Part shown: positions 6,201-61,049 of the stretch, piece by piece | How positions within the stretch are numbered: position 1 is the stretch's first letter | Layout: each line of letters starts with the position of its first letter | Assembly (NCBI RefSeq): GCF_003814705.1 | Contig: NZ_RKRA01000001.1 | Coordinates: forward strand, 2,418,001 to 2,482,000 | Reading direction: 5' to 3' | Origin: Georgenia muralis | Lineage (GTDB): Bacteria; Actinomycetota; Actinomycetes; Actinomycetales; Actinomycetaceae | Length of the DNA stretch: 64,000 bases | Made by a program: the position numbers and the translations under genes | Notes under the pieces: generated by a model | What the model saw: only the letters and a program-made list of their open reading frames with translations | What the model was told of the DNA's origin: nothing | Database searches by the model: none

Positions 6201-6905
6201 GTGATCCGACTCGCCATCGTCTCGGCGTCCACGAGCCCCAACCGCACGGGCAGCCCCATCGCCGCGTGGGTCGCGGAGCGGGCCCGGCACTGCCGCGCCT
6301 TCGACGTGGACGAGATCGACCTCCAGCAGGTCGCCCTGCCCCTGTTCGACGAGCCGTTCCTGCCCCGCTACCGGCGCTACATGCACCCGCACACCCTGCG
6401 CTGGTCGGAGCGGGTCGAGAGCCAGGACGCCTTCGTCTTCGTCATGCCCGAGTACAACCGCGGGTACCCGGCCCTGCTGAAGAACGCCCTCGACTTCCTC
6501 GTGCAGGAGTGGGCGTTCAAGCCCGCCGGCATCGTCTCGTACGGGTCGGGGATGACCGCCGGTATCCGGGGCGCCGAGGCGCTGCGCGGTGTCCTCAGCG
6601 CCCTGCAGATGCATCCGGTGCGGGAGACGGTGATGGTGCCGTGCGTGGAGGCGCACCTCCACGGTGGTGTGTTCGCACCGACCCCTGGCATGGTGGAGGG
6701 CGCCGAGCTGATGCTCGAGTCGATCGTGCGGGCCGACGCGGCGATGAACCTGCTGCGCACCACGACCGAGGAGGTGGGCGGGCAGCAGGGCGACGACCCC
6801 GAGCTCGCCGACCGCGGTGAGGGCGGCTACTCCCCGCGACCGGCGCGGGACGAGCGGGAGGCGTGGCGGCGCTCCGCGATGGGCCCCGGCGGCGCTCGCG
6901 GCTGA
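6201..6905 (+). CDS. NAD(P)H-dependent FMN reductase family flavoprotein
   Basis: 234 aa, flavodoxin-like fold. The phosphate-binding loop follows the first strand (RLAIVSASTSPNRTGSPIA), and PEYNRGYPALLKNALDFL (about 87-104) is the hallmark of the NADPH-FMN reductase/azoreductase family. The last 40 residues are polar and probably disordered. GTG at 6201 is chosen for GGAGGAG five nt upstream and because beta-strand 1 starts at residue 3. The physiological acceptor (quinone, azo or nitro compound) is unknown. It stands alone, ahead of hup. Confidence 0.88.
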   Translation: MIRLAIVSASTSPNRTGSPIAAWVAERARHCRAFDVDEIDLQQVALPLFDEPFLPRYRRYMHPHTLRWSERVESQDAFVFVMPEYNRGYPALLKNALDFLVQEWAFKPAGIVSYGSGMTAGIRGAEALRGVLSALQMHPVRETVMVPCVEAHLHGGVFAPTPGMVEGAELMLESIVRADAAMNLLRTTTEEVGGQQGDDPELADRGEGGYSPRPARDEREAWRRSAMGPGGARG

Positions 6906-7044
6906 GCGGGGCGGCACGGCGGCACCCGGCGCGCGCAGACGACGCCCAGTGTGGCCTGTGTGACAGATGTGACGGGTGGGGTGGACCGACGGTCTCTCAA
7001 GACGGCCAGATCGGCGCAGACACGCGGAAAAGTGGCGTGTGCGG

Positions 7045-7074
7045 ACGACATCGGCGCCCGGCTGTGCGTAGTGT
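7045..7074 (+). promoter_or_regulatory. Candidate hup promoter
   Basis: ACGACA (7045-7050) and TAGTGT (7069-7074), spaced 18 nt, lie about 55 nt before the hup ATG. The -35 match is weak. Confidence 0.4.
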
Positions 7075-7084
7075 CGGGCGCAGC

Positions 7085-7103
7085 GGCACCCGATACGGGT
7101 GCC
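7085..7103 (+). other. Hairpin in the hup leader
   Basis: GGCACCCG, loop ATA, CGGGTGCC forms a perfect 8-bp stem in the presumed 5' leader, ending 14 nt before the purine-rich ribosome site at 7117-7123. It could stabilise the mRNA or tune translation; the function is not known. Confidence 0.5.
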
Positions 7104-7128
7104 CGTTCCGAACGATGAGAGGGTTTCT

Positions 7129-7410
7129 ATGTCCGTCAACCGCACCGAGCTCGTCGCCGCCGTCGCCGAGCGCGCCTCGCTCTCCAAGACCCAGGCCGAC
7201 GCCGCCCTGTCCGCGCTGCAGGACGTCCTCGTGGACTCCCTCGGCAAGGGCGAGGCCGTCAAGGTCACCGGTCTGCTGAGCGTGGAGCGCGTCGAGCGCG
7301 CCGCCCGCACCGGTCGCAACCCCCGCACCGGCGAGGAGATCCAGATCCCCGCCGGCTACGGCGTCAAGATCTCCGCCGGCTCGGCCCTGAAGAAGGCCGT
7401 TGCCAAGTGA
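7129..7410 (+). CDS. hup: HU-family nucleoid DNA-binding protein
   Basis: 93 aa, the classical bacterial HU/IHF length and not the long lysine-rich tailed form of mycobacteria. It begins with the dimerising helices (NRTELVAAVAERASLSKTQA) and has the beta-arm signature GRNPRTGEEIQIPAG at about 62-76, which wraps the DNA minor groove. It acts as a dimer bending and compacting the chromosome. ATG 7129 has GAGAGGG just upstream. A perfect terminator follows 20 nt after the stop, so it is monocistronic. Confidence 0.96.
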   Translation: MSVNRTELVAAVAERASLSKTQADAALSALQDVLVDSLGKGEAVKVTGLLSVERVERAARTGRNPRTGEEIQIPAGYGVKISAGSALKKAVAK

Positions 7411-7430
7411 CCCTGCGCTGACGCGCGAGG

Positions 7431-7461
7431 GACGGGCAGGACCACACCGGTCCTGCCCGTC
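7431..7461 (+). terminator. Terminator after hup
   Basis: A perfect 13-bp stem (7431-7443 with 7449-7461) around an ACACC loop, followed by TCGTCTTC. It separates hup from nagB. Confidence 0.85.
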
Positions 7462-7532
7462 TCGTCTTCACCGGCGCGGCGGCGACGCCCCGCGTCCCCG
7501 GCGCCCCGCGCCCCGAGCACCAGGAGAGTGAC

Positions 7533-8318
7533 GTGGAAGTCGTCATCCAGCCCGACGCGGCGGCCATCGCCCGGCTCGTGGCCGACGAGGTCCAGAGCCT
7601 CCTCGCGGCCCGCCCCGACGCGGTGCTCGGCCTGGCCACGGGTTCGAGCCCGCTGGCCGTGTACGACGAGCTCGTCCGCCGGTACGAGGCGGGCGTCCTG
7701 AGCCTCGCCCGGGTGCGGGCCTTCATGCTCGACGAGTACGTCGGGCTGCCGGACGACCACCCGGAGCGGTACCGGAACGTCATCGAGCGCGAGTTCGCCG
7801 GGCGGGTCGACCTTCCTGCCGGCGCGGTCCAGGGGCCCGACGGCAACGCCGAGGACCTGCCCGCCGCGTGCGCCGCCTACGAGGCGGCCATCGCCGCCGC
7901 GGGCGGGGTCGACCTCCAGCTCCTCGGCATCGGCAGCGACGGCCACATCGCCTTCAACGAGCCGGGTTCCTCCCTCGCCTCGCGCACCCGGATCAAGACC
8001 CTGACCTCCCAGACCCGGCGGGACAACGCCCGCTTCTTCGACGGCGACGTCGAGGCCGTCCCGCGGCACTGCCTCACGCAGGGTCTGGCGACGATCATGT
8101 CCGCCCGACACCTCGTCCTCGTCGCCACCGGCGCCGGCAAGGCCGAGGCCGTGCACCACCTGGTCGAGGGTCCCGTCAGCGCGATGTGGCCGGCCACGAT
8201 CATGCAGCACCACCCGCGAGCCACCGTGCTCGTCGACGACGCCGCGGCGTCGCGCCTGCAGCTGGCCGGCTACTACCGCGAGGTCTTCGCCGGCAAGCCC
8301 TCCTGGCAGGGACTCTGA
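7533..8318 (+). CDS. nagB: Glucosamine-6-phosphate deaminase
   Basis: 261 aa. Converts glucosamine-6-phosphate to fructose-6-phosphate and ammonia, the last step of amino-sugar catabolism. GLATGSSPLAVY (33-44) is the phosphate loop and MLDEYVGL carries the conserved Asp. LGIGSDGHIAFNEPG gives Asp136, His138 and Glu143, the counterparts of the E. coli catalytic residues. GTG 7533 has AGGAGAG four nt upstream. It is single here. Its substrate would be supplied by NagA (not in the window) from the GlcNAc-6-P made by the MurQ island at 44-55 kb and by any GlcNAc PTS. Confidence 0.95.
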   Translation: MEVVIQPDAAAIARLVADEVQSLLAARPDAVLGLATGSSPLAVYDELVRRYEAGVLSLARVRAFMLDEYVGLPDDHPERYRNVIEREFAGRVDLPAGAVQGPDGNAEDLPAACAAYEAAIAAAGGVDLQLLGIGSDGHIAFNEPGSSLASRTRIKTLTSQTRRDNARFFDGDVEAVPRHCLTQGLATIMSARHLVLVATGAGKAEAVHHLVEGPVSAMWPATIMQHHPRATVLVDDAAASRLQLAGYYREVFAGKPSWQGL

Positions 8319-8393
8319 CGCCGTCGGGACCTGGGTCCCTTGCGACGTCGACACCCGGGTGTGGCACCCGGGTGGGCCACCCGCGGCGGTGCT

Positions 8394-8399
8394 TAGACT
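8394..8399 (+). promoter_or_regulatory. Leaderless-type -10 element of the DUF3039 gene
   Basis: TAGACT stands 7 nt before the ATG at 8407, with no Shine-Dalgarno. Confidence 0.55.
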
Positions 8400-8406
8400 G
8401 GGTGCC

Positions 8407-8778
8407 ATGAGCTCCACCCCCGACCGGCCCACCGGTCCGCAGCAGCCGGCACCCCCCTCCAGCGCCCCCGCGAGCGGCACGAGCGTGCTCGAGCGCGAGG
8501 AGGTGCGCGAGCAGGTCTCACCCGGGGACGACGAGCGCTACGCCCACTACGTCCGCAAGGACAAGATCACCGCCGCGGCCGTCACCGGCCAGCCGGTGGT
8601 GGCCCTGTGCGGGAAGGTCTGGACGCCGGGACGCGATCCGAACAAGTACCCGGTGTGCCCCACCTGCAAGGCGATCTTCGAGGGCATGAACCCCGGCGGC
8701 GACGAGGGCGGCAAGGGTCGCGGCTGGCCCTTCGGGCGCGGCCGCAAGGACGGCGCCTCCTCGGGAAGCGGGGAGTGA
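8407..8778 (+). CDS. DUF3039 family protein
   Basis: 123 aa. A proline/serine-rich N-terminal 30 residues precede the conserved core YAHYVRKDKITAAAVTG, then VALCGKVWTPGRDPNKYPVC and CPTC, three cysteines that could form a small zinc-binding knuckle. The C-terminus is glycine-rich and basic. The function is unknown. The stop overlaps the start of the following helicase (GTGA), so the two are made together; a role with the helicase on nucleic acid is an inference only. Confidence 0.85.
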   Translation: MSSTPDRPTGPQQPAPPSSAPASGTSVLEREEVREQVSPGDDERYAHYVRKDKITAAAVTGQPVVALCGKVWTPGRDPNKYPVCPTCKAIFEGMNPGGDEGGKGRGWPFGRGRKDGASSGSGE

Positions 8779-42555: not shown

Positions 42556-43149
42556 GTGAGCCGGCTGACCATCCCCGTGAAGCTGCGCTGGAGCGACATC
42601 GACGCCTACCAGCACGTCAACAACGCCCGGATGTTCACCATCCTCGAGGAGACGCGCATCGCCGCGTTCTGGGCGTCCGTCCCCGGTGACGCCCACCGTG
42701 CGGAGGTGGACCGGGCCGGGACGGCGGGCGGCGCGGACCGGGCCGGGACGGCGGGAGGCGCGGACCGGGCCGGGACGGCGGGAGGCGCGGACCGGCCCGG
42801 CGATGCCGCGGCGGCCGGCGACCGGCCCGGCACGCGGGTCCTCGACACCGGCCCCGGCTCGGGGACGAACACCTACATCGCCCGCCAGGAGATCGAGTAC
42901 CTCGAGGCGGTGCCGTACTCGCTCGAGCCGCTGCCGGTGCAGCTGTGGATCTCCCACCTCGGCGGGGCGAGCATCGACATCTGCTACGAGATCGCCGGCC
43001 GGACCGGGCCCGCCGTGCGGGCCATGACCACCCTCGTCCTCGTCGACGAGGCGACCGGCCGGCCGCGTCGGATGAGCGAGGCCGAGCGCGCGTCCTGGCT
43101 CGAGTTCGTCGACGAGCCGTTGGTCTTCCGGCGCCGGAGGGGCGAGTAG
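42556..43149 (+). CDS. Acyl-CoA thioesterase, hotdog fold (4HBT type)
   Basis: 197 aa. LRWSDIDAYQHVNNARM (10-26) is the 4HBT signature, with the catalytic Asp. The second half (YIARQEIEYLEAVPY and LWISHLGGASIDICYEIA) completes the hotdog fold. Between them sits a low-complexity insert of about 45 residues, made of DRAGTAGGA repeats, placed after the first strand-helix unit. GTG 42556 follows AGAGGAAGAGGG. A terminator separates it from ettA, but the pairing is common in actinobacteria. The acyl substrate is unknown. Confidence 0.88.
   Translation: MSRLTIPVKLRWSDIDAYQHVNNARMFTILEETRIAAFWASVPGDAHRAEVDRAGTAGGADRAGTAGGADRAGTAGGADRPGDAAAAGDRPGTRVLDTGPGSGTNTYIARQEIEYLEAVPYSLEPLPVQLWISHLGGASIDICYEIAGRTGPAVRAMTTLVLVDEATGRPRRMSEAERASWLEFVDEPLVFRRRRGE
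42709..42789 (+). repeat. 27-bp in-frame tandem repeat in the thioesterase gene
   Basis: Three copies of 27 bp (42709-42735, 42736-42762, 42763-42789), the first differing by one base, encode DRAGTAGGA three times in a surface insert. Confidence 0.92.
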
Positions 43150-44291: not shown

Positions 44292-45254
44292 TCAGCGGGC
44301 CCGGCCCGCGAGCTCGCCGGGGCCGAGCGGCGGCCACCCCGCCCGGCGCGCGGCGAGGGCGACGGCACCGACGACGGGCTCCGCAGCCTCGCGGACGTCC
44401 CGCCGGGCGAGCGCGGTGCGCACCGTGTCGCGGACCGGGCCCGGGGAGAGGAGCACCGATCCGGCGAGCACCACGGTGCCGCCCCGGTCCACCGCCCCGA
44501 ACGTGGTGAGGAGCGCCGCGGCCGCCTCCGCCGCGATGCGCCCGGCGACCTCGTCGCCGGCGGCGGCGGCGGCGGTGACAGCCGGGGCGAAGCGGCCGAG
44601 CTCGGCAGGGGTGGACATGTCGACGAGGCGGACGATGTCCTGCCGGGGATCACCGGTTCCGTCCGCGCCGTGGTCGCTGGTGTGGGCCGCGGCCGCGGCG
44701 ACGAGCCGGGTGACGGGACCCCGACCGTCGAGGGCCGCCGCTGCGGCCCGGAGCCCGGCCAGACCCAGCCACACCCCCGACCCGACGTCCCCGAGCAGCC
44801 AGCCCAGTCCGTCGCTCCGGGCGATCGGGGCGAAGTCCGCCATGCGGCACGCCACCGCGCCGGTGCCGGCGAGCAGGAGGCTGCCCTCCCCGGAAGGCGC
44901 CGCGGCGGCGAAGGCGATCTCGGGGTCGCTGCGCAGCTCCGGCACGGGATCCCCGGGCAGGTGCGCCGCGGCGACCGCGTCGTCGAGCAGCGCGCGCGCC
45001 CGGGTGCGGCCTGCCGGCCCTGCCCCGGTGAGGCCGGCGACGACGCCGACCACCCGCCACGGGGCCCCGTCGAGAGCGGCGCGGAGGTCGGCAGCCGCAC
45101 CCCGGACCAGTGTTCCCAACGCGTCGCCGGGCGCGGAGGAGCGGAAGCTGGCGCCGGGCCCCCGGCGGCGGACCAGCGGCTGGCCGTCGGCGCCGGCGAC
45201 GAGCACGCGCGACGAGGTGCCACCCACGTCCACGCCGATGACGACCTCGATCAT
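44292..45254 (-). CDS. BadF/BadG-family amino-sugar kinase (GlcNAc/MurNAc kinase-like)
   Basis: 320 aa. ASKHA fold: phosphate-1 loop VIGVDVGGTSSRVLVAG (4-20), LLLAGTGAVACRM for phosphate-2, and LLGDVGSGVWLGLAGL. The family includes eukaryotic GlcNAc kinase and clostridial MurK, which phosphorylates both GlcNAc and MurNAc. The divergent position beside the MurNAc operon favours MurNAc/GlcNAc as substrate; this is inference. ATG 45254 is chosen because the DVGGT loop starts at once; GAGGGA lies upstream. Confidence 0.85.
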   Translation of the reverse strand: MIEVVIGVDVGGTSSRVLVAGADGQPLVRRRGPGASFRSSAPGDALGTLVRGAAADLRAALDGAPWRVVGVVAGLTGAGPAGRTRARALLDDAVAAAHLPGDPVPELRSDPEIAFAAAAPSGEGSLLLAGTGAVACRMADFAPIARSDGLGWLLGDVGSGVWLGLAGLRAAAAALDGRGPVTRLVAAAAAHTSDHGADGTGDPRQDIVRLVDMSTPAELGRFAPAVTAAAAAGDEVAGRIAAEAAAALLTTFGAVDRGGTVVLAGSVLLSPGPVRDTVRTALARRDVREAAEPVVGAVALAARRAGWPPLGPGELAGRAR

Positions 45255-45284
45255 GCCGGTTGTTCCCTCGATCACGTTTGGGTG

Positions 45285-45325
45285 GTAACTTTCCATCCGC
45301 AGACAGTCTAGGGAGAAAAGTTCCC
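45285..45325. promoter_or_regulatory. Candidate operator pair between the kinase and the salvage operon
   Basis: Two AT-rich motifs stand out in the 143-bp divergent region: GTAACTTTCC (45285-45294) and GGGAGAAAAGTTCCC (45311-45325). They share AACTTT in opposite orientation, and the second is a near-palindrome. They bracket TAGGGA (45309-45314), a possible -10. They are plausible sites for the RpiR-type regulator at 52169 and could control both directions. Confidence 0.45.
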
Positions 45326-45397
45326 GGGATGTCCTGGCCACATCCAACCAGCAGTCCGCGGCGCAACGGAGCCCGCGACACGAACAGGGAGACAGGC

Positions 45398-46726
45398 ATG
45401 AGGCGACGAGTTTCTGGTGCGGCGGCGATGGTGACGGTCGCGCTGACCCTCGCGGCGTGCGGCAGCTCCGGCGGCACCGAGACCGAGGCGGGCTCCGCCG
45501 AGAGCGGCACCGCGGAGGAGGGCCCGGCCTACGCCGGGGAGACGCTGGACGTCTGGATCATGGAGGGCACCAACCCCGACGGATCGGCCTTCTTCGAGGA
45601 GGTGGGCGCAGCCTTCGAGGAGCGCACGGGTGCCACGCTCAACGTCGAGTTCCAGCCGTGGGCGAGCGCGCACGACAAGTTCGTCACCTCCATCGCCGGC
45701 GGGACCGGACCGGACGTCGCCGAGGTGGGTACCACCTGGACCACGGAGTTCGCCGAGATCGGCGCGCTGGAGGACCTCAGCCCGCGGATCACCGAGGCGG
45801 GCCTGGACGGCGACCTGGTCGAGGGGCTCGTGGAGGCGGGCACCTACGACGGCGGCCTCTACGGGATGCCCTGGTACGCCGGGGTGCGCTCGATGATCTA
45901 CAACACCGAGATCTTCGATGCCGCCGGCATCGAGGAGCCGCCCCAGTCGTGGGAGGAGCTGGTCGCCGCGGTCGAGGCGATCAGGTCGAGCCAGCCCGAC
46001 GTCATCCCCTTCCCGATCCCCGGTGACAGCCAGTACGGCGCCTACCCGTGGATCTGGGGTGCCGGCGGCGAGATCGCCTCCCAGGAGGGGGACGCCTGGG
46101 CGTCCGAGATCAGCGCTCCCGAGGCAGTCGAGGGCCTGGACTTCTACACCGGCCTCGCGCTCGAGCACGACTCGTCGACGGCGGCCGCCACCACCTGGAA
46201 CGAGGCCGCGGTCCTCGAGGCCTTCATGCAGGGCGACGTCGGCATGGTCATCGCGGGCAGCTGGACGCCGGGCCGCATCGCCCAGGACGCCCCGGACCTC
46301 GTCGAGAAGGTCGCCGCGTTCCCGATCCCGGCGAAGGACGGCGGCGTGGCCGGCTCCTTCCTGGGCGGGTCCCACCTCGGGGTGTTCTCCGACGCGGAGA
46401 ACCCCGACCTCGCGTGGGAGTTCGTCGAGATGATGGGCACCGGCGAGTTCGCGCAGCAGTGGGCCGAGCAGTCCGGCTTCTTCCCGGGCCAGGCCAGTCT
46501 CATGGAGGAGATCGCCGCCACCGACGACCCCATGGTCGCGCCGTTCGCCCAGCAGATGCTCGAGGGCGGCCGGGCCATGCCGGTCACCCCGCTCTTCGGC
46601 CAGATCCAGGGCGCGAAGACGGTCGAGACGATGCTCCAGTCCATCCTCTCCGGCAGCGCCTCGGTGCAGGAGGCCGCCGAGACGGCCGCCGCGCAGATGG
46701 ACGAGACCTTCGCCGCCGCCGAGTGA
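45398..46726 (+). CDS. Sugar-binding lipoprotein of the wall-sugar importer
   Basis: 442 aa. Signal peptide with lipobox LTLAACGS, a Glu/Ser-rich linker, then a cluster B binding fold (LDVWIMEGTNPDGSAFFEEV, GTGPDVAEVGTTW, GLYGMPWYAGVRSMIYN, DVGMVIAGSWTPGRIA). It has the size and aromatic content of oligosaccharide-binding proteins. Being first in an operon with NagZ-, AnmK- and MurQ-type enzymes, it probably binds GlcNAc-MurNAc or GlcNAc-anhydroMurNAc fragments. ATG 45398 has AGGGAG seven nt upstream. Confidence 0.92.
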   Translation: MRRRVSGAAAMVTVALTLAACGSSGGTETEAGSAESGTAEEGPAYAGETLDVWIMEGTNPDGSAFFEEVGAAFEERTGATLNVEFQPWASAHDKFVTSIAGGTGPDVAEVGTTWTTEFAEIGALEDLSPRITEAGLDGDLVEGLVEAGTYDGGLYGMPWYAGVRSMIYNTEIFDAAGIEEPPQSWEELVAAVEAIRSSQPDVIPFPIPGDSQYGAYPWIWGAGGEIASQEGDAWASEISAPEAVEGLDFYTGLALEHDSSTAAATTWNEAAVLEAFMQGDVGMVIAGSWTPGRIAQDAPDLVEKVAAFPIPAKDGGVAGSFLGGSHLGVFSDAENPDLAWEFVEMMGTGEFAQQWAEQSGFFPGQASLMEEIAATDDPMVAPFAQQMLEGGRAMPVTPLFGQIQGAKTVETMLQSILSGSASVQEAAETAAAQMDETFAAAE

Positions 46727-47715
46727 TGATCGAGCAGGCCCCGTCCCGAGCGGCCGTCGCGCCGTCCGGGACGGGGCGCGCGGCGGGAGGCGGCGGCGCC
46801 GGGAGCAACGCGCGGCGCCGTCGCCGGCGCGCCACCGTGCGGGCGTGGCTGCTGCTCAGCCCGGCCCTGGTGCTCTTGGGCGTGCTGCTCCTCGTGCCCC
46901 TCGTCCGGGTCGTCCAGCTCTCCTTCCAGGACTACGGCCTGCGGGAGCTGGCCGCCGGCACGACCAACCCGGTCGGCTGGGCCAACTACGCCGAGATCCT
47001 CTCCTCGCCGTACCTGTGGCAGACCGTGCTCCCCAACACCGTGGGATTCGCGCTGGTGTGCGTCACCCTGACGGTGACCCTCGGCACGCTCGTCGCGCTG
47101 TTCCTCAACACCCTGAGCACGAGATGGCGGGTGCTGTGCTCGACGGCGATCATGGTCGCCTGGGCGGTCCCGGCCGTGACCGGCACCTACGTGCTGGTGT
47201 GGATCTTCGACCCGCTCAACGGGCTCGTCGCCAGCGTGCTGGCCGACGTGGGGCTCATCGAGGCGGGTACCGTCAACTGGTTCGCGCACCGGGTCCCCTT
47301 CTACGCCATCGCCACCCTCAACGTCGTCCACCACGGGTTCCCGTTCATCGCCATCACCGTCCTCGCGGGCCTCATGACGGTGCCCGTCGAGCTGTACGAG
47401 GCGGCCCGGATCGACGGAGCGGGAGCGTGGCGCCGGTTCTGGAACATCACGGTCCCGATGCTGCGGCCCGTCTTCGCCGTGGTCACCATCCTGTCGACGA
47501 TCTGGGACTTCAAGGTCTTCACCCAGATCTACCTCATGCCCGGTGGCAACGGCGGCAACCCCGACGTCTACAACCTCGGGGTGTGGAGCTACCTCCAGTC
47601 CTTCGCCCAGGGCAAGTACGGCATGGGCTCGGCGATCGCGGTCCTGCTGACGCTCATCCTGCTCGCCGTCACCGTCGTGTACACCCGCACCGTCTTCAAG
47701 GAGCAGGACCTGTGA
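46726..47715 (+). CDS. Sugar ABC transporter permease (MalF-like)
   Basis: 329 aa, six transmembrane helices after a Gly/Arg-rich cytoplasmic tail. The EAA loop is LYEAARIDGAGAWRRFWNIT. Its ATG shares one base with the binding-protein stop (TGATG). It forms the channel with the next permease. No ATPase is encoded in the operon. Confidence 0.93.
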   Translation: MIEQAPSRAAVAPSGTGRAAGGGGAGSNARRRRRRATVRAWLLLSPALVLLGVLLLVPLVRVVQLSFQDYGLRELAAGTTNPVGWANYAEILSSPYLWQTVLPNTVGFALVCVTLTVTLGTLVALFLNTLSTRWRVLCSTAIMVAWAVPAVTGTYVLVWIFDPLNGLVASVLADVGLIEAGTVNWFAHRVPFYAIATLNVVHHGFPFIAITVLAGLMTVPVELYEAARIDGAGAWRRFWNITVPMLRPVFAVVTILSTIWDFKVFTQIYLMPGGNGGNPDVYNLGVWSYLQSFAQGKYGMGSAIAVLLTLILLAVTVVYTRTVFKEQDL

Positions 47716-48539
47716 ACGGCCGCGCCCCTCTCGCCCGCGCCGGCCGCGCCGCCGGCATCGTCGCCCTGCTGGTGTTCTCGCTCTTCCCGGCGTACTGGAT
47801 GTTCACCACGGCCATCGACGCCGACGCCGCCACCCGGGGATCGTCGCTGTTCCCGGCGGACCTGACCTGGGCGCACTTCGACCGGGTCCTCGACCAGGGC
47901 GGGTTCGCCGTGTACATCCGCAACTCCGTGCTCGTAGCCACCGGCACGGTCCTCGTCTCGGCTCTCGTCGCGCTCCTCGCGGCGGTGGCGGTCGCACGAT
48001 TCGAGTTCTCGCTGCGCAAGGCGATGCTCGTCATGATCCTCGTGGTCCAGATGGTCCCGCTCGAGGCCCTGGTCATCCCGCTGTTCCTCCAGGCCCGCGA
48101 CCTCCAGATGCTCAACTCGCTCCTCGGGCTCGTCATCGTCTACCTCGCCTTCTCCCTGCCGTTCGCGGTGTGGACGCTGCGGGGTTTCGTCGCCGCGGTC
48201 CCCAAGGAGATCGAGGAGGCGGCCTACGTCGACGGCGCCTCGTGGGGCCGGATGTTCCGGTCGGTGCTGCTGCCCCTGGTGGCCCCCGGTCTCGTGGCGA
48301 CGAGCGTCTTCGCCTTCATCACGGCCTGGAACGAGTTCATCTTCGCCCTGACGTTCATGCAGGACTCCGACCGGTACACCGTGGCGATCGGCCTCCAGAA
48401 GTTCTTCGGCCAGAACACCGCCGACTGGGGCGCCGTCATGGCCGCCTCGACGCTCATCACGCTGCCCGTCGTCGTGTTCTTCACCCTGGTCCAGCGCAAC
48501 CTCTCCTCCGGACTCGCGGCCGGGGCGGTGAAGGGCTGA
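47712..48539 (+). CDS. Sugar ABC transporter permease (MalG-like)
   Basis: 275 aa, six transmembrane helices. The EAA loop is IEEAAYVDGASWGRMFRSVL and the end LSSGLAAGAVKG is typical of CUT1 permeases. GTG 47712 overlaps the upstream stop by four bases. It is the partner of the preceding permease. Confidence 0.93.
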   Translation: MNGRAPLARAGRAAGIVALLVFSLFPAYWMFTTAIDADAATRGSSLFPADLTWAHFDRVLDQGGFAVYIRNSVLVATGTVLVSALVALLAAVAVARFEFSLRKAMLVMILVVQMVPLEALVIPLFLQARDLQMLNSLLGLVIVYLAFSLPFAVWTLRGFVAAVPKEIEEAAYVDGASWGRMFRSVLLPLVAPGLVATSVFAFITAWNEFIFALTFMQDSDRYTVAIGLQKFFGQNTADWGAVMAASTLITLPVVVFFTLVQRNLSSGLAAGAVKG

Positions 48540-50047
48540 TGGGCATCACGACCCGGCACCCGGACCGGTCCGAGGTGAGACGGCTGGTCCTGGGCGTGCT
48601 CGCCCCCGGCTTCACGGGCAGCACCCCACCCACCTGGCTGCTCGAGGCGGTCCGCGACGGCCTCGCCGGCGTTGTCCTCTTCGCCGGCAACTCCCCGGAC
48701 GTGGTCACCACCCGTGCGCTGACCGACGCCCTGCGCGCGGCGGGGCCGGTGCTCGTCGCGATCGACGAGGAGGGCGGCGACGTCTCGCGTCTGCAGGCCC
48801 GGGACGGCTCGTCGCTGCCGGGCGCCGCGGCGCTGGGCGTCGTCGACGACCCCGACCTCACCCGCCGGACCGGCTCCGCGCTCGGGGAGCTCCTGCGGCT
48901 CGCCGGGGTGGACCTCGACCTCGCCCCGGTCCTCGACGTGGCGTCCGAGCCGCGCAACCCCGTCATCGGGGTGCGCTCCTTCGGTGCGGACCCCGACCTC
49001 GTCGGCCGCCACGGGGCCGCCCTGGTGGCGGGCCTGCACGCCGCGGGGGTCGCCGCGTGCGGCAAGCACCTACCGGGGCACGGTGCGACGACCGTGGACT
49101 CCCACGTCGGCCTGCCCGTCGTCGACGCGGACGTGGCGACCCTCGAACGACGCGACCTCCCGCCGTTCCACGCCGCCGTGCGAGCCGGTCTGGACGCGGT
49201 GATGACCGCACACGTCCGCGTCCCGGCCCTCGGCCCCGCGCCCGCGAGCCTGGAGCCGGCCGTCACCCGCCTCGCGCGCGCCCTCGGGGGCGGGTTCGAC
49301 GGCCCCGTCATCACCGACGCCCTCGACATGGGTGCCGTCGCCGACGACCCCGGCCTCGGCGAGGCCTGCGTGCGGGCGCTCGAGGCGGGGGCCGACCTGC
49401 TGTGCCTGGGCACCACGGTCGGGCGCGACGACCGCGCCATCCTGGAGACCGCGGTGAGCGCGCTCACCGACGCCGTCGTCGCGGGCCGGCTCGAGCCCGA
49501 CCGGCTCACGACCTCCGCTTCCCGTCACGCCCGGCTGCGCCGGCGGTCCGCAGCCGAGGCACCCGCGAGCGTGCCGGCCACTGCCGACGGGGAGCAGCTG
49601 CGCCGCGCGGTCGCCGACGCGGAGGCCGCCCTCGCCGTCGTCGGCGCGGAGACCGCCCGCCGGGCGGTGGCCGTCCGGGGGCAGGTGCGGCGCAGCGGCG
49701 TGCCGGTGCTGCTGGACCTGCGACGCCGCCTCAACCACGCGGCCGGCCGCACCTCCCCGGCCCTCGCCACCGAGCTCGCCCGCCGCCGCCCCGGCACACT
49801 CGTCGTGCTGCGCGGTGAGGACGTCCCCGCCGACCCCGACCGCCCGCTCGTCGTCCTCACCCGTGAGCCGCTCGCCGACGCGGACGAGGGCCGGAGCCTC
49901 GCGGCGGTCCTGGCCGCGCGTCCCGATACCGTGGTCATCCACGGCGGCACCGCACCGGCGGCGCCGGACGCCGAGCACCTGGTGCTGGCCCACGGTGTCG
50001 GCCGGGCCAACGCCGAGGCCGCCCTCGACCTGGTGGTGGGGCCGTGA
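48539..50047 (+). CDS. nagZ: GH3 beta-N-acetylhexosaminidase (NagZ type)
   Basis: 502 aa. The NagZ-specific loop GKHLPGHGATTVDSHVGLPV supplies the His/Asp acid-base dyad, and VITDALDMGAV holds the nucleophile Asp. The (beta/alpha)8 domain (1-330) is followed by an alpha/beta domain with an unclear role (340-500), longer than Gram-negative NagZ and like Gram-positive forms. There is no signal peptide, so it should split imported GlcNAc-MurNAc or GlcNAc-anhydroMurNAc in the cytoplasm. ATG overlaps the permease stop (TGATG). Confidence 0.9.
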   Translation: MGITTRHPDRSEVRRLVLGVLAPGFTGSTPPTWLLEAVRDGLAGVVLFAGNSPDVVTTRALTDALRAAGPVLVAIDEEGGDVSRLQARDGSSLPGAAALGVVDDPDLTRRTGSALGELLRLAGVDLDLAPVLDVASEPRNPVIGVRSFGADPDLVGRHGAALVAGLHAAGVAACGKHLPGHGATTVDSHVGLPVVDADVATLERRDLPPFHAAVRAGLDAVMTAHVRVPALGPAPASLEPAVTRLARALGGGFDGPVITDALDMGAVADDPGLGEACVRALEAGADLLCLGTTVGRDDRAILETAVSALTDAVVAGRLEPDRLTTSASRHARLRRRSAAEAPASVPATADGEQLRRAVADAEAALAVVGAETARRAVAVRGQVRRSGVPVLLDLRRRLNHAAGRTSPALATELARRRPGTLVVLRGEDVPADPDRPLVVLTREPLADADEGRSLAAVLAARPDTVVIHGGTAPAAPDAEHLVLAHGVGRANAEAALDLVVGP

Positions 50048-51213
50048 GGGTGCTCGCCCTTTCCTCCGGGACGTCCGTGGACGCCATCGACGTCGCCCTC
50101 GCCGACCTGACCGACGCCGAGGGGACCCTGATCATGCGTCCGCTCGGCCATGCCGAGGTCCCCTGGCCCGAGGAGCTGCGCAAGCGGATCGTCGCCGCGC
50201 TGCCGCCCGCGCTGCCGGGCGCGGGGGAGTGGTGCGCGCTCGACACCCTCGTCGGCCAGGCCTTCGGTGACGCCGCGGCAGCGGCGTCGGAGAGCCTCGG
50301 GCCCGCCGAGCTCGTCGTCTCGCACGGGCAGACCCTCTTCCACTGGGTGCGTGACGGCCGCGCCCGGGGCACGCTCCAGGTGGGTGCACCGGCGTGGATC
50401 CACGCCCGCTGCGGTCTCCCCGTCGTCCACGACCTGCGCACCGCGGACATCGCCGCGGGCGGCCACGGCGCGCCGCTGGTCAGCCTCCTCGACCAGCTCT
50501 GGCTCGGCGGCACCGCCACCGCCGCGCTCAACGTCGGCGGGATCGCGAACGTCACCCTGCTCGGCGGCGCCGACGTCGTCACCGGCGACACCGGACCCGG
50601 CAACTGCCTGATCGACGCCGCTGCGCGGGCGTTCGACGGCCGGCCCTACGACGCGGGCGGCGAGCTCGCCGCAACCGGCACGGTCGATCGGCGCGCGCTG
50701 GACCTGCTGCTCACGGACCCGTTCTACGCCCAGCCACTGCCCCGGAGCACCGGGCGGGAGCACTTCCACGCCGGCTACGTCGCCGAGCGCCTGGCCGCGC
50801 TGCCCGACTCGCCGACGGGGCCCGACCTCCTCGCGACCCTCACCGAGCTCACCGCCCGCACGATCGCCGCGCAGGTCCGCGGCGTGGCGCGGGTCGTGGT
50901 CTCGGGTGGCGGCGCCCACAACCGCGTCCTCATGAGCCGCCTCCGCGAGCTCCTGCCGGGGGTGGTCACCGCCACCTCGCTCGGTCTGGACGGCGACGCC
51001 AAGGAGGCCTACCTCTTCGCCGTCCTCGGCTACCTCGCGGTGCGGGGCCTGCCCGGGACAGCGCCGCGCCGGCTCGACCGGCCCGACGGTCCCCGGTGCA
51101 CCGGGGCCGCGCGGCCCGTGGTCCTGGGGTCCCTGACCCCGCCCGCCCCAGCACCGTGCGAGCCGGCGACCGTGCCCGTCTCGCGCCTGCAGATCCTCGA
51201 GGAGCAGCCATGA
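50044..51213 (+). CDS. anmK: Anhydro-N-acetylmuramic acid kinase
   Basis: 389 aa. Opens 1,6-anhydro-MurNAc and phosphorylates it to MurNAc-6-P. VLALSSGTSVDAIDVAL is the ATP-binding start; most relatives have GTSxDGxD, so Ala replaces Gly here. VVSHGQTLFHW, LNVGGIANVTLL, GDTGPGNCLIDAAA and VVSGGGAHNRVLM are the other conserved blocks. GTG 50044 overlaps the nagZ stop. Its presence implies that lytic-transglycosylase products are used. Confidence 0.93.
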   Translation: MRVLALSSGTSVDAIDVALADLTDAEGTLIMRPLGHAEVPWPEELRKRIVAALPPALPGAGEWCALDTLVGQAFGDAAAAASESLGPAELVVSHGQTLFHWVRDGRARGTLQVGAPAWIHARCGLPVVHDLRTADIAAGGHGAPLVSLLDQLWLGGTATAALNVGGIANVTLLGGADVVTGDTGPGNCLIDAAARAFDGRPYDAGGELAATGTVDRRALDLLLTDPFYAQPLPRSTGREHFHAGYVAERLAALPDSPTGPDLLATLTELTARTIAAQVRGVARVVVSGGGAHNRVLMSRLRELLPGVVTATSLGLDGDAKEAYLFAVLGYLAVRGLPGTAPRRLDRPDGPRCTGAARPVVLGSLTPPAPAPCEPATVPVSRLQILEEQP

Positions 51214-52172
51214 CCCGGTCCGGAAGCGACTGGCGGGACGTGCTCAGCCTGCGCTCGCCCACCGAGGAGCGCAACCCGCGCACCGCGATGATCGACCAGC
51301 TCCCGACGCGTGAGGTCGTGTCGCTCGTGCTCGCCGAGGACCGTGCGGTCCTCACGGCCGTGGAGGCGGCCGCCGAGCAGGTGGGCGCGCTCGCCGAGGC
51401 CGGCGTGGCGGCGGTGCGGCGCGGTGGTCGGATCCACTACGTCGGGTCCGGGACCTCGGGACGCCTCGGCGTGCTGGACGCCGTCGAGCTGCGGCCCACC
51501 TACGACGTCGGGGAGGAGACCGTCCTCCCGCACCTCGCCGGCGGCCCGAGCGCGATGACCCGCGCGGTGGAGGGGGCCGAGGACGACGTCGACGCCGGCC
51601 GGGCGGTCACCGCGGAGGTCGCGGCCGGCGACCTCGTCGTCGGCCTCAGCGCCAGTGGCCGCACCCCCTTCGTGGCCGGGGCCCTCGCGGCCGCCCGCGA
51701 GCTCGGCGCGGTCACAGCGCTGGTCTCGACGAACCCCGCGGCACCCCTGGCTGCCGGGGTCGACATCGCGGTGCTCCTGGACACCGGGCCCGAGGTCGTC
51801 ACCGGCTCGACGCGGATGAAGGCCGCGACGGCGCAGAAGCTCGTCCTCAACGCCTTCTCGACCGCCGTGATGGTGCGTCTCGGGAAGACCTACTCCAACC
51901 TCATGATCGAGGTGCTGCCCACAAACGACAAGCTCAGGGCCAGGACGGTCCGGATGCTCGTCCAGGCCACCGGTGCCCCACCGGACAGGTGTGCCGAGGT
52001 CCTGGAGGAGGCCCGCGGCCGGGTGCGGACCGCGCTCGTCGCCCTGCTGGCGGGCTGCTCGGCCGACGAGGCCGCGCGCGCCGTCGAGGCCCATCCGCCG
52101 GACGCGGACCGGTCCGGCGATCCCGCCGGCGTCCGCGCCGCCGTCGCGGCACTCGGGGTGGTGGCCCGGTGA
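51210..52172 (+). CDS. murQ: N-acetylmuramic acid 6-phosphate etherase
   Basis: 320 aa. Removes D-lactate from MurNAc-6-P to give GlcNAc-6-P. N-terminal TEERNPRTAMIDQLPTREVV and the SIS-domain blocks IHYVGSGTSGRLGVLDAVEL and VVGLSASGRTPFVAGAL are characteristic. TGSTRMKAATAQKLVLNAFS and TYSNLMIEV complete the family set. The catalytic Glu lies in the VLDAVELRPT region. ATG 51210 overlaps the anmK stop (ATGA). Confidence 0.96.
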   Translation: MTRSGSDWRDVLSLRSPTEERNPRTAMIDQLPTREVVSLVLAEDRAVLTAVEAAAEQVGALAEAGVAAVRRGGRIHYVGSGTSGRLGVLDAVELRPTYDVGEETVLPHLAGGPSAMTRAVEGAEDDVDAGRAVTAEVAAGDLVVGLSASGRTPFVAGALAAARELGAVTALVSTNPAAPLAAGVDIAVLLDTGPEVVTGSTRMKAATAQKLVLNAFSTAVMVRLGKTYSNLMIEVLPTNDKLRARTVRMLVQATGAPPDRCAEVLEEARGRVRTALVALLAGCSADEAARAVEAHPPDADRSGDPAGVRAAVAALGVVAR

Positions 52173-53080
52173 GCGCACCGCTGACCGTACGCCTGCGGGG
52201 CCTGCTGCCCCAGCTCCAGCCCTCCACGAGGCGGGTGGCCGAGCTCGTCCTGCACGACCCCGAGCGGGCGGCCGGCCTCACCATCACCCAGCTGGCCGAG
52301 GAGGGCCGGACCTCGCAGTCGACCATCGTGCGCCTGTGCCAGGAGGCGGGCCTCGACGGGTACCGGCAGTTCCGGATGGAGCTCGTCGCGGAGCTCGGCC
52401 GTTCCGAGGGCGGGCCGGCGGCGGTGGCCGGGGACATTGCCGAGGGGGACGACCTCGCCTCGGTCGTGGCCAAGATCGCCTTCGCCGACGCGCGCGCGGT
52501 CGAGGACACCGCCCGGGCGCTGTCGGTGCCGGCGCTCGAGGCGGTCGCCGAGGCGGTCGTCCGCGCCGGCCGCACCGACGTCTACGGGGTGGGCGCGTCC
52601 GGGATCGTCGCGGCGGACCTGCAGCAGAAGCTCCACCGGATCGGCCAGGTGGCCTTCTCCTTCACCGACGCCCACCTCGCGCTCACCTCGGCGGCGCTGC
52701 TCGGCCCCGGCGACGTCGCGATCGGGGTGTCCCACAGCGGCATGACCATCGACACCGTCGACGCGCTGTCCATCGCCCGGCGCAACGGCGCCACGACCGT
52801 GGCGATCACCAACGCCCCCCGCTCCCGCATCGCCGCCGACGCCGACCACGTCCTGCTGACCGCGGCGCGGGAGACCACGTTCAGGTCGGGTGCGACCGCC
52901 TCCCGGCTCGCGCAGCTGACGGTCGTCGACTGCGTGTTCGTGGCGGTGGCTCAACGCACCTACGACGCGAGCCGCCGCGCGCTGGAGGTCACCCGCGAGG
53001 CCGTGCGTGACCGCAGCCTCGCCGCCCGGGGACGCGGCCCGAACGGGTCACGCCCCGCACCAGGAGAGGAGGCCGGCTGA
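52169..53080 (+). CDS. RpiR-family transcriptional regulator with SIS domain (MurR-like)
   Basis: 303 aa. N-terminal helix-turn-helix (about 20-75: RRVAELVLHDPERAAGLTIT, TSQSTIVRLCQEAGLDGYR) and a sugar-phosphate SIS domain (about 115-255: VYGVGASGIVAADLQQKL, GVSHSGMTIDTVDAL). The position directly after murQ, overlapping by GTGA, suggests it senses MurNAc-6-P or GlcNAc-6-P and controls this operon, as E. coli MurR does. Candidate operators are at 45285-45325. Confidence 0.9.
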   Translation: MSAPLTVRLRGLLPQLQPSTRRVAELVLHDPERAAGLTITQLAEEGRTSQSTIVRLCQEAGLDGYRQFRMELVAELGRSEGGPAAVAGDIAEGDDLASVVAKIAFADARAVEDTARALSVPALEAVAEAVVRAGRTDVYGVGASGIVAADLQQKLHRIGQVAFSFTDAHLALTSAALLGPGDVAIGVSHSGMTIDTVDALSIARRNGATTVAITNAPRSRIAADADHVLLTAARETTFRSGATASRLAQLTVVDCVFVAVAQRTYDASRRALEVTREAVRDRSLAARGRGPNGSRPAPGEEAG

Positions 53081-53161
53081 GGGGGATCAGACCCCCGGGC
53101 CCCGTCGCCCGACGACGCGCGACGGCGCCACGCACACGAGACGAGAAGAAGGAGCAAGACG

Positions 53162-54724
53162 ATGAGACGACCGACCGCGAGGACGATCGCCGCACTGGGG
53201 GGTTTTGCACTCCTGCCCGCACTCGCCGCGGCACCCGCCGTGGCCGAGACCACGCAGCCTGAGGCTGCCGGCGCCACGGAGCAGTGGCGCGGCTACTGGG
53301 TCGACGCCTTCAACGAGGGCATCTACGACGCCGACCAGGTCAGCGGGCTGGTCACCGAGGCTCAGGACCTCGGGGCCAACGCGCTCGTGGTCCAGGTGGG
53401 CCGGCGGTTCGACTGCTTCTGCAACGAGGCCCTCTACCCGCGTACCGACGCCAGGATCGACCCCGCGCCGTACGACCCGCTCGCCGAGGTCGTCGAGCAG
53501 GCGCACGCCGCGGGCATCGAGGTCCACGCGTGGGTCAACGCCACGACCCTGTGGAACTCGGCCACCGCGCCGACGTCACCGGAGCACGCGTTCAACGCCC
53601 ACGGCCTCGACGCCGAGGGCGGGGACCGCTGGCTGAACAAGCGCGTCGACGGCGCCGAGAAGATCGGCAACAACACCTTCATCGACCCGGCGAACCCCGC
53701 CGCGGTGGACTACGTCGTCGACGCGGTCACCTCGATCACCGCGAACTACGACGTCGACGGCGTCAACCTCGACTACATCCGCTACCCCGACTACAACGGA
53801 GGCGAGTTCGTCAACGACTGGGGCTACTCCGAGGTCTCGCTCGCCCGGTTCGCCGAGGAGACCGGCACCACCGAGGTCCCCGCGCCCGACGACGCCGCGT
53901 TCAGCGACTGGCGTCGCGACCAGGTGTCCAACCTCGTCCGGAAGATCTTCGTGAACATGTACGAGGTGGACCCGAGCGACCGGTTGAGCATCAACGGCAT
54001 CACCTACGCCTACGGCCCGCAGACGTACGGCGGCTGGGAGGGCACCCGGCCCTACACCAACGTCATGCAGGACTGGCGCGGCTGGCTCGACGAGGGCATC
54101 GTCGACACCGTCACCGCGATGAACTACAAGCGGAATTGGAACCCGGACCAGGCGAAGATGTTCACCGAGTGGAACGAGGCGCTGGCCGAGTACCGGGCGG
54201 ACCGGCACGTCGTCTCCGGGCCCGCGCTGTACCTCAACGGCATCGAGGACTCCGTCGCGCAGGCGCAGGAAGTGGTCGATCTCGGGCTCGACGGGTGGAT
54301 GGGCTACTCCTACGCCAACCCCACCATGGCCGCCACCGCCTCGGGCGACCTGGCGTTCAAGGACGCCCAGCGGGCCGCGCTCGTCGACGCCCTGCGCGCG
54401 GACGTGCTCGCGGAGGACGTCGTCGTGCCGGAGATGACCTGGAAAACCCAGCCCACCACCGGCACCGTGTCGGGTTCCGTGGCGCTGCGTGACGGCACGG
54501 TGGCGGACCAGGTCGACGTCGTCCTGCACCCGGTCGCCGGACCCGGCGAGGTGGTCCGGGTGCGCACCGACGGCACCGGCTGGTTCGGTGCGGTCGATCT
54601 CGCCCCCGGGCGCTACCGCGTCCAGGTCGTCGAGGAGGGTGCCGAGGGCACCGCGTCGACCTTCGTGCAGGTGGAGGCCGGCACGGTCAGCGAGGTGTCG
54701 GTACGGGCGGACACCCTGGGCTGA
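53162..54724 (+). CDS. Secreted GHL10 family glycosidase (DigH-like)
   Basis: 520 aa. Sec signal peptide (1-28). The glycosyl-hydrolase-like 10 barrel spans about 40-410: QWRGYWVDAFNEGIYDADQV, ALVVQVGRRFDCFCNEALYP, VDGVNLDYIRYPDYN with the conserved catalytic-site Asp, and VTAMNYKRNW. A C-terminal beta-sandwich (about 430-518: GTVSGSVALRDGTV, YRVQVVEEG) resembles carboxypeptidase-regulatory-like modules. E. coli DigH, of the same family, cuts stem-peptide-free peptidoglycan glycan. Its own ribosome site is AGAAGGAG. It ends the salvage island and a terminator follows. Confidence 0.85.
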   Translation: MRRPTARTIAALGGFALLPALAAAPAVAETTQPEAAGATEQWRGYWVDAFNEGIYDADQVSGLVTEAQDLGANALVVQVGRRFDCFCNEALYPRTDARIDPAPYDPLAEVVEQAHAAGIEVHAWVNATTLWNSATAPTSPEHAFNAHGLDAEGGDRWLNKRVDGAEKIGNNTFIDPANPAAVDYVVDAVTSITANYDVDGVNLDYIRYPDYNGGEFVNDWGYSEVSLARFAEETGTTEVPAPDDAAFSDWRRDQVSNLVRKIFVNMYEVDPSDRLSINGITYAYGPQTYGGWEGTRPYTNVMQDWRGWLDEGIVDTVTAMNYKRNWNPDQAKMFTEWNEALAEYRADRHVVSGPALYLNGIEDSVAQAQEVVDLGLDGWMGYSYANPTMAATASGDLAFKDAQRAALVDALRADVLAEDVVVPEMTWKTQPTTGTVSGSVALRDGTVADQVDVVLHPVAGPGEVVRVRTDGTGWFGAVDLAPGRYRVQVVEEGAEGTASTFVQVEAGTVSEVSVRADTLG

Positions 54725-58200: not shown

Positions 58201-58431
58201 ATGACCAAGGCCGAAGACATCCTCACCGCGTTGGGAGGTGCCGCGAACGTCGTCGACGTCGAGCCGTGCATCACCCGCCTGCGGGTGGAGGTCCGCGACC
58301 CGGCGGCGGTGGGGGATCGCGACCTCAAGGCCACGGGCGCGTTCGGCGTGGTCCGCTCCGGCCGCATCGTCCAGATCGTCGTCGGTCCCGAGGCGGACGA
58401 CCTGGCCGAGGCGATCGGCGCCATGCTCTGA
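58201..58431 (+). CDS. Stand-alone PTS EIIB domain, glucose/GlcNAc family (copy 1)
   Basis: 76 aa, one EIIB domain only. The phosphorylated Cys23 is in VEPCITRLRVEVRD, the invariant motif of the glucose/GlcNAc/maltose class. GAFGVV and VQIVVGPEAD complete the fold. It accepts phosphate from an EIIA and passes it to sugar bound by a separate EIIC, neither present here. GGAGG lies eight nt before the ATG. It is 62% identical to the second EIIB at 60819. Confidence 0.93.
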   Translation: MTKAEDILTALGGAANVVDVEPCITRLRVEVRDPAAVGDRDLKATGAFGVVRSGRIVQIVVGPEADDLAEAIGAML

Positions 58432-60818: not shown

Positions 60819-61049
60819 ATGAGTCAGGCCGAGCAGATCCTCGCGGCACTCGGCGGGGACGCGAACGTCCTCGACCTCGAGGCGTGCATCACCCGCCTCC
60901 GCGTGGAGGTGGAGGACCCGTCCAAGGTGGACGAGGCGGCGCTCAAGGCCGCGGGCGCCTTCGGCGTCGTGCAGCAGGGCGCCGCCGTGCAGGTCGTGGT
61001 GGGCCCGCAGGCGGACACCATCGCCGAGGACATCGAGGACCTCCGCTAG
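60819..61049 (+). CDS. Stand-alone PTS EIIB domain, glucose/GlcNAc family (copy 2)
   Basis: 76 aa, a single EIIB domain with Cys23 in LEACITRLRVEVED. 47 of 76 positions match copy 1 without gaps. The differences cluster at 35-41, 52-56 and the last four residues, so partner specificity may differ. AGGAG lies nine nt before the ATG. It has its own TTGACA promoter about 80 nt upstream and a strong terminator after it. Confidence 0.93.
   Translation: MSQAEQILAALGGDANVLDLEACITRLRVEVEDPSKVDEAALKAAGAFGVVQQGAAVQVVVGPQADTIAEDIEDLR

Follow-up and report, generated by a model that had tools for sequence, protein, structure and literature searches.

The nine-gene locus

Within a 64-kb stretch of the Georgenia muralis genome (hereafter the window, i.e. 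the whole stretch of DNA that was analysed), nine genes at 44292-54724 combine a sugar importer of the ATP-binding cassette (ABC) type with enzyme families acting on the peptidoglycan amino sugars N-acetylglucosamine (GlcNAc), N-acetylmuramic acid (MurNAc) and 1,6-anhydro-MurNAc (anhMurNAc). They are listed below with their model scores, where "over" precedes the cut-off.

44292-45254, minus strand: BadF-type sugar kinase, MurK/GlcNAc-kinase-like, ATG start at 45254, divergent from the operon (PF01869, 58 bits over 31.5)
45398-46726, plus strand: solute-binding lipoprotein (SBP) of a CUT1-type sugar ABC importer (PF01547, 166 bits)
46726-47715, plus strand: ABC permease 1 (PF00528)
47712-48539, plus strand: ABC permease 2, GTG start (PF00528)
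48539-50047, plus strand: GH3 beta-N-acetylglucosaminidase, NagZ-type, by eye without signal peptide (PF00933, 219 bits)
50044-51213, plus strand: AnmK, anhMurNAc kinase, GTG start (PF03702, 314 over 24; NF007146, 475 over 440)
51210-52172, plus strand: MurQ, MurNAc-6-phosphate etherase (NF003915, 351 over 168; motifs)
52169-53080, plus strand: RpiR-family regulator (HTH_6 and SIS domains), GTG start (Pfam)
53162-54724, plus strand: GHL10-fold protein that looks secreted, from a divergent subfamily (DYxRYPD), its C-terminal domain regulatory-like (PF02638, 100 over 27.9)

Coordinates, Pfam matches and overlaps agree with a first-pass annotation of this DNA, which had named the same nine genes and families. 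All nine proteins exceed the Pfam gathering scores in the expected families, MurQ through SIS-type models only. The seven genes from the SBP to the RpiR regulator overlap at all six junctions (by 1, 4, 1, 4, 4 and 4 bp), which is a strong sign of a single operon; gaps of 143 bp and 81 bp lie between the kinase and SBP genes and between the RpiR and GHL10 genes, respectively. Third-position GC content is 0.93-0.97 across the nine genes, and the kinase frame has an alternative TTG start at 45347. The terms lipoprotein for the SBP, which carries the lipobox LAAC, and secreted for the GHL10 protein were assigned by eye from the N-termini.

AnmK displays the motif DTGPGN from residue 182, MurQ the motifs GSGTSGRL, DAVELRPT and EGAED, and the NagZ candidate the motif KHLPGHG...DSH, all of which we take to be catalytic signatures. 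Against stricter models the scores were lower: MurQ reached 283 with TIGR00274 (cut-off 302), the NagZ candidate 169 with the equivalog model NF003740 (cut-off 207) and the regulator 106 with the MurR model NF012026 (cut-off 408), the last being assigned to the RpiR family only. Two NagA-like genes lie elsewhere in the genome, with 205 and 186 bits, both below the NagA cut-off of 226.

The importer consists of an SBP_bac_1 protein and two BPD_transp_1 permeases, as is typical for CUT1. No ATPase gene was found among the nine genes, and two UgpC-type ATPases over the model cut-off are encoded elsewhere in the genome and are possible partners, so that the importer probably relies on a shared ATPase. 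MsiK is such a shared importer ATPase in Streptomyces. Comparison of the SBP with solved structures gave 428 matches to generic sugar binders, from which no ligand could be read.

Two features of the intergenic regions may bear on regulation:

45281-45325, no strand assigned: candidate promoter/operator in the kinase-SBP gap, a block of 45 bp containing the elements TAACTT and GGGA...TTCCC (hand alignment)
53081-53161, plus strand: 81-bp RpiR-GHL10 gap with a stable predicted hairpin and no T-run (z -2.55; stability equalled by 2 of 200 shuffles)

Manual alignment placed the 45-bp block, whose TAACTT element is -10-like, in 12 of the 14 distinct regions upstream of SBP genes. These derive from 17 SBP genes including that of the window, 15 of which have a usable start (not L075 and L104; L and G numbers denote loci and genomes), L102 being a duplicate of L068. 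Three of the regions come from one genus, L043 and L050 fit only loosely, and L055 and L070 gave no alignment. An inverted repeat in the same gap was discarded as evidence, because shuffled sequences score as well: its score was equalled by 18 to 59 of 60 shuffles in eleven regions, L101 (4 of 60) being the exception. For the RpiR-GHL10 gap, read-through, processing or a separate promoter for the GHL10 gene are possible.

Association of the importer and the kinase with AnmK and MurQ

Two genome samples were used. In the order set (149 genomes) MurQ was found over cut-off in 52 genomes and AnmK in 37, of which 35 were kept after matches of 24 bits in G148 and G119 had been dropped; the SBP was found in 17 genomes at E 1e-60 and the kinase in 72 at E 0.001. 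GHL10 exceeded its cut-off in 23 genomes: 13 have a match above 100 bits (termed full), and the 10 with matches below 100 bits only were dropped. The phylum set comprises 396 genomes, a few of them common to the order set.

In the order set an SBP orthologue of at least 400 bits occurs in 16 genomes, and every one of these contains AnmK and MurQ, at base rates of 35/149 for AnmK (Fisher 3e-12) and 52/149 for MurQ. Of the 35 AnmK genomes 32 have MurQ. Within the 52 murQ genomes the importer occurs in 16 of 32 with AnmK vs 0 of 20 without it (p 6e-5). The importer lies within 10 kb of AnmK in 12 of the 16 genomes and within 10 kb of AnmK or murQ in 13. With the preset threshold of E 1e-60, AnmK accompanies the SBP in 16 of 17 genomes, the exception being G051 (214 bits), which has no AnmK over cut-off. 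In the phylum set the 11 best SBP homologues (at least 220 bits) all occur together with AnmK at a base rate of 17/396, and after removal of Georgenia's own order the figures are 9/9 vs 15/394. Among the eight genomes below these 11 best, AnmK is present in one, so that the preset E 1e-50 yields 12/19. Importer and AnmK are at most 6 kb apart in six of the 11 (G000, G198, G221, G243, G274 and G430), on separate contigs in G349 and G440, 87 kb apart in G263 and far apart in G038 and G348. Within single genera the association is partial: in genus g18 neither gene occurs in G011, whereas both are present in G029, G076, G104, G118 and G132, and in genus g33 neither occurs in G069 and both are present in G038, G097 and G111. 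Relatives of the importer, GH3, AnmK, MurQ, RpiR and kinase genes co-occur in other families too. The import and catabolism unit for peptidoglycan sugars suggested by the first-pass annotation is thus upheld by its recurrence and by a tie of importer to AnmK beyond chance. Since the importer tracks AnmK, we infer a ligand with an anhMurNAc end; MurNAc itself would be another possible ligand.

Several points weigh against this assignment. The limits of 400 and 220 bits were chosen after the lists had been inspected, and the genomes, which fall into seven genera in the order set, are related and not independent. Furthermore, the importer is absent from 19 of the 35 AnmK genomes of the order set, G046, G090 and G146 of genus g18 have AnmK without the importer, and AnmK and importer are separated by 215 kb in G029 and by more than 1 Mb in G038 and G136, and lie on different contigs in G097. 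The NagZ, NagA and MurR models, moreover, all score below cut-off.

A second type of transporter was observed at some loci. An SSF symporter (at least 850 bits to that of L043, for which alone Pfam was run) stands beside AnmK and murQ in 11 of 56 murQ loci (L043, L047, L048, L050, L051, L053, L056, L058, L064, L066 and L067), in 10 of them between the two genes. All 11 genomes contain AnmK, and three (G008, G027 and G074) also have the ABC importer. Taken together, 24 of the 35 AnmK genomes have the SSF gene near murQ or the ABC importer anywhere, and 11 have neither, the SSF gene having been sought only in murQ loci. The symporter may represent another route of uptake for the sugars in question.

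The best match of the kinase among solved structures is the MurNAc/GlcNAc kinase MurK of C. acetobutylicum (8zo3; E 3.9e-13, 53 bits), and MurK of T. forsythia matches at E 0.35 only. Its score with the GlcNAc-kinase model NF046058 (55) is far below the cut-off of 370. In 26 of the 52 murQ genomes a kinase homologue lies no more than 12 kb from murQ. Six of these 26 genomes lack AnmK, which favors MurNAc kinase activity in some of the six, but only G011 among them carries a kinase closely related to that of the window (134 bits). Only nine of the 26 homologues exceed 110 bits, the window kinase included, and those at or below this value may represent a different BadF subtype. The nearest relatives of the window kinase have the same motifs. 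Both GlcNAc and MurNAc are probable substrates. The earlier conclusion that AnmK together with a MurK-like kinase implies use of both lysozyme-type and lytic-transglycosylase-type fragments does not follow, because the GlcNAc released by NagZ needs a kinase anyway, a need that the BadF kinase may simply fill; such use is permitted, not implied.

The GHL10-fold protein

The AlphaFold2 model of the protein (mean predicted local distance difference test score 80.9) gave Cwp19 as top Foldseek match (E 2.9e-20), followed by a beta-amylase with a high root-mean-square deviation (18 A) and the PgaB glycosidase domain. The GHL10 fold is firm at the level of this predicted model; no NCBIfam model matched. 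Its nearest named relatives, with 83 and 79% identity, belong to Georgenia. When the window protein was aligned with its relatives (21 rows), D204, Y205, R207, Y208, P209 and D210 (DYxRYPD) as well as T129 proved invariant, and the alignment has many invariant polar and aromatic residues. Where DigH, Cwp19 and the canonical members of the order display FDDYFYP and NPYR, the window protein has LDYIRYPD and NATT. Asp196 and Arg132 of Cwp19, the likely active-site residues according to the part of its description cited here (PMC5765458), correspond to Tyr205 and Thr129. Owing to these differences, an assignment as a plain DigH/Cwp19 equivalent was rejected.

Of the 13 order-set genomes with full GHL10, 12 have MurQ and 11 have AnmK. 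The first-pass annotation had named a missing link of the GHL10 gene and the kinase to murQ as the finding that would speak against one unit; the counts gave no such refutation: murQ is at most 10 kb away from 5 of the 13 GHL10 genes, in addition to the 26 of 52 for the kinase. Six of 13 lie within 5.5 kb of AnmK. Uniform placement would rarely produce such clustering, a figure that ignores relatedness, and the other seven genes, which are far from AnmK or in genomes lacking it, contradict a tight rule. In G038 (L093) a canonical GHL10 gene (6461-8470, minus strand) lies 2.3 kb from AnmK with murQ 2.1 Mb away, which argues for a direct GHL10-AnmK link. Such a link fits Cwp19, whose anhydro products need AnmK: Cwp19 is characterized, in the portion of the source used, as a GHL10 lytic transglycosylase producing anhydro ends (PMC6016235). 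The window-type form occurs in five order-set genomes, beside murQ in G000, G013 and G063 and not in G067 and G030.

A genome scan yielded 30 named GHL10 loci (L102 and L110 being, to judge by their length, contigs of the order-set genomes G013 and G030), nine of which carry AnmK and/or MurQ: L098 and L099 (Georgenia), L100 (Actinotalea), L101, L102-L104 (Occultella), L105 (Tessaracoccus) and L122 (Nitriliruptoraceae). L099 lacks AnmK and importer within its stretch, L105 has AnmK and RpiR with no MurQ match, and L106, a 7-kb contig, contains an SBP homologue only. In the other 20 loci, some of them on short contigs, none of these genes was found. The phylum set gave GHL10 matches at 27 places in 23 genomes, and in wider flanks of 26 loci clear importer relatives stand beside GHL10 in L162 and L174 (with MurQ and AnmK) and in L182 (with GH3).

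Some of these loci show further peculiarities. L122 (428-11455) unites the importer with MurQ, AnmK, a BadF kinase gene and a pair of dissimilar GHL10 genes, a GntR-UTRA regulator replacing RpiR. L174 (3405-4400, minus strand) and L182 (7886-8935, plus strand) encode a common protein without Pfam match between permease 2 and GHL10/MurQ. Eleven of the 20 other named loci, all from Streptomyces (L112, L114-L117, L120, L121, L123, L124, L126 and L127), have a window-type GHL10 gene behind a conserved ABC transporter of the SBP_bac_6 type, probably for iron, with an RlmN-like gene close by.

Proposed pathway, alternatives and known systems

From gene content and co-occurrence we consider it likely that the genes form an operon for the salvage of amino sugars from peptidoglycan, whose importer would most probably take up saccharides ending in anhMurNAc. 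In the proposed route the CUT1 importer, probably with a shared ATPase, would import wall saccharides, most likely GlcNAc-anhMurNAc or anhMurNAc. NagZ would release GlcNAc in the cytoplasm, AnmK would open and phosphorylate anhMurNAc to MurNAc-6-phosphate, and MurQ would strip the lactate to give GlcNAc-6-phosphate. The BadF kinase would phosphorylate the released GlcNAc and perhaps MurNAc, and NagA-like enzymes encoded elsewhere may continue the route. The RpiR regulator probably responds to a sugar phosphate, with the kinase-SBP gap as its site of action, and the secreted GHL10-fold protein probably acts on extracellular wall glycan. As to the earlier suggestion that the glycan comes from outside, the sequence fits uptake of foreign wall and recycling of the cell's own wall equally well.

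In an alternative reading of the same operon, lysozyme-type cleavage would supply the main ligand of the importer, plain MurNAc or GlcNAc-MurNAc; MurNAc-6-phosphate would then be made by the BadF kinase, and AnmK would be ancillary. The position of MurK as nearest solved structure to the kinase, the six genomes that lack AnmK but have a kinase homologue close to murQ, and G029, where the importer stands beside murQ and the kinase at a distance from AnmK, are consistent with this explanation. We nevertheless regard it as unlikely in view of the absence of the importer from all 20 murQ genomes of the order set that lack AnmK, including G011 with its close kinase relative beside murQ. An operon that chiefly serves GlcNAc oligomers, for example those from chitin, and in which the muramic genes are passengers would be compatible with the GH3 enzyme and the GlcNAc-kinase-like gene, and the SBP matches general NCBIfam models of the maltose- and chitin-oligomer type, all far below cut-off; yet its orthologues track AnmK and MurQ, enzymes useless on chitin, which makes this reading highly improbable.

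For the GHL10 protein it is possible, if somewhat doubtful, that it is a neighbor with a different role (on another glycan, or as a binding protein) outside the wall-sugar pathway. The 81-bp gap, the substituted Asp196 and Arg132 of Cwp19, the unlinked gene in G067, its presence in G030 (88% complete), where murQ was not found, and the relatives behind an iron-type ABC transporter in Streptomyces point in this direction, whereas the nine named loci from several genera, the importer genes nearby in L162, L174 and L182 and the many invariant polar and aromatic residues argue for a role in wall-sugar salvage. The earlier idea that this GHL10 protein cleaves denuded glycan is weakened by the replacement of the proposed active-site residues, though the gene recurs near AnmK/MurQ. 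Returning to the salvage operon for anhMurNAc-ended saccharides, a more specific form is quite conceivable and is put forward tentatively: the importer would be an ABC transporter dedicated to anhMurNAc saccharides, i.e. an actinobacterial AmpG counterpart, partly replaced elsewhere by the SSF symporter beside AnmK/murQ, and the GHL10 proteins of the DYxRYPD subfamily a novel type of secreted enzyme for wall glycan feeding it.

The binding protein of the YejBEF-YepA transporter of Agrobacterium is reportedly of a different type from the SBP of the window. According to the excerpt used, YejBEF-YepA is likewise an ABC transporter for peptidoglycan recycling in a species missing AmpG, and takes up muropeptides (PMC9790009). 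In the B. subtilis cluster murQ-murR-murP-amiE-nagZ-ybbC, as far as the cited text covers it (PMC5061867), MurQ, a MurR/RpiR-type regulator, NagZ and a transporter are clustered as well; there, however, the phosphotransferase system (PTS) protein MurP and an extracellular NagZ take the place of the CUT1 importer and a NagZ without visible signal peptide, and AnmK, BadF kinase and GHL10 are additional in Georgenia. The same source describes SCO4305-SCO4308 of S. coelicolor, likewise an actinobacterial set with MurQ and MurR-like genes and no MurP, which includes two genes without assigned function and whose importer is not known there. The E. coli-type set NagE, AnmK, MurK, MurQ and NagB of M. 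smegmatis shares AnmK, MurK, MurQ and the lack of MurP with the window, a likeness of gene content, and no such importer is mentioned in the section cited (PMC13041923). The C. difficile protein Cwp19 and the E. coli protein DigH share the GHL10 fold and differ in motifs, going by the relevant passages (PMC6016235, PMC5765458, PMC12288456), and the MurK proteins of C. acetobutylicum (8zo3) and T. forsythia are BadF-type kinases like that of the window (PMC10465942, as excerpted). No publication that we could recognize within the open-licence literature describes such an importer.

Within the limits of the extracts used, S. coelicolor recycles MurNAc although it has no MurP orthologue (PMC5061867), and the mycobacteria treated in PMC13041923 lack a MurP homologue. 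The AnmK-tracking importer offers a concrete candidate for the route of muramic sugars into actinobacterial cells, and Georgenia, Actinotalea and Occultella are among the relatives where it could be tested. If correct, it would mark actinobacteria that use lytic-transglycosylase-type wall fragments.

In the surroundings of the locus two short, similar stand-alone PTS EIIB proteins (58201-58431 and 60819-61049, plus strand) flank, by eye, a 4-alpha-glucanotransferase-like gene, and a ptsI-like gene on the minus strand lies before the first EIIB gene. Upstream, a frame resembling a hotdog thioesterase by eye (~42558-43149, plus strand) has in its central part about three copies of the short peptide repeat GTAGGADRA.

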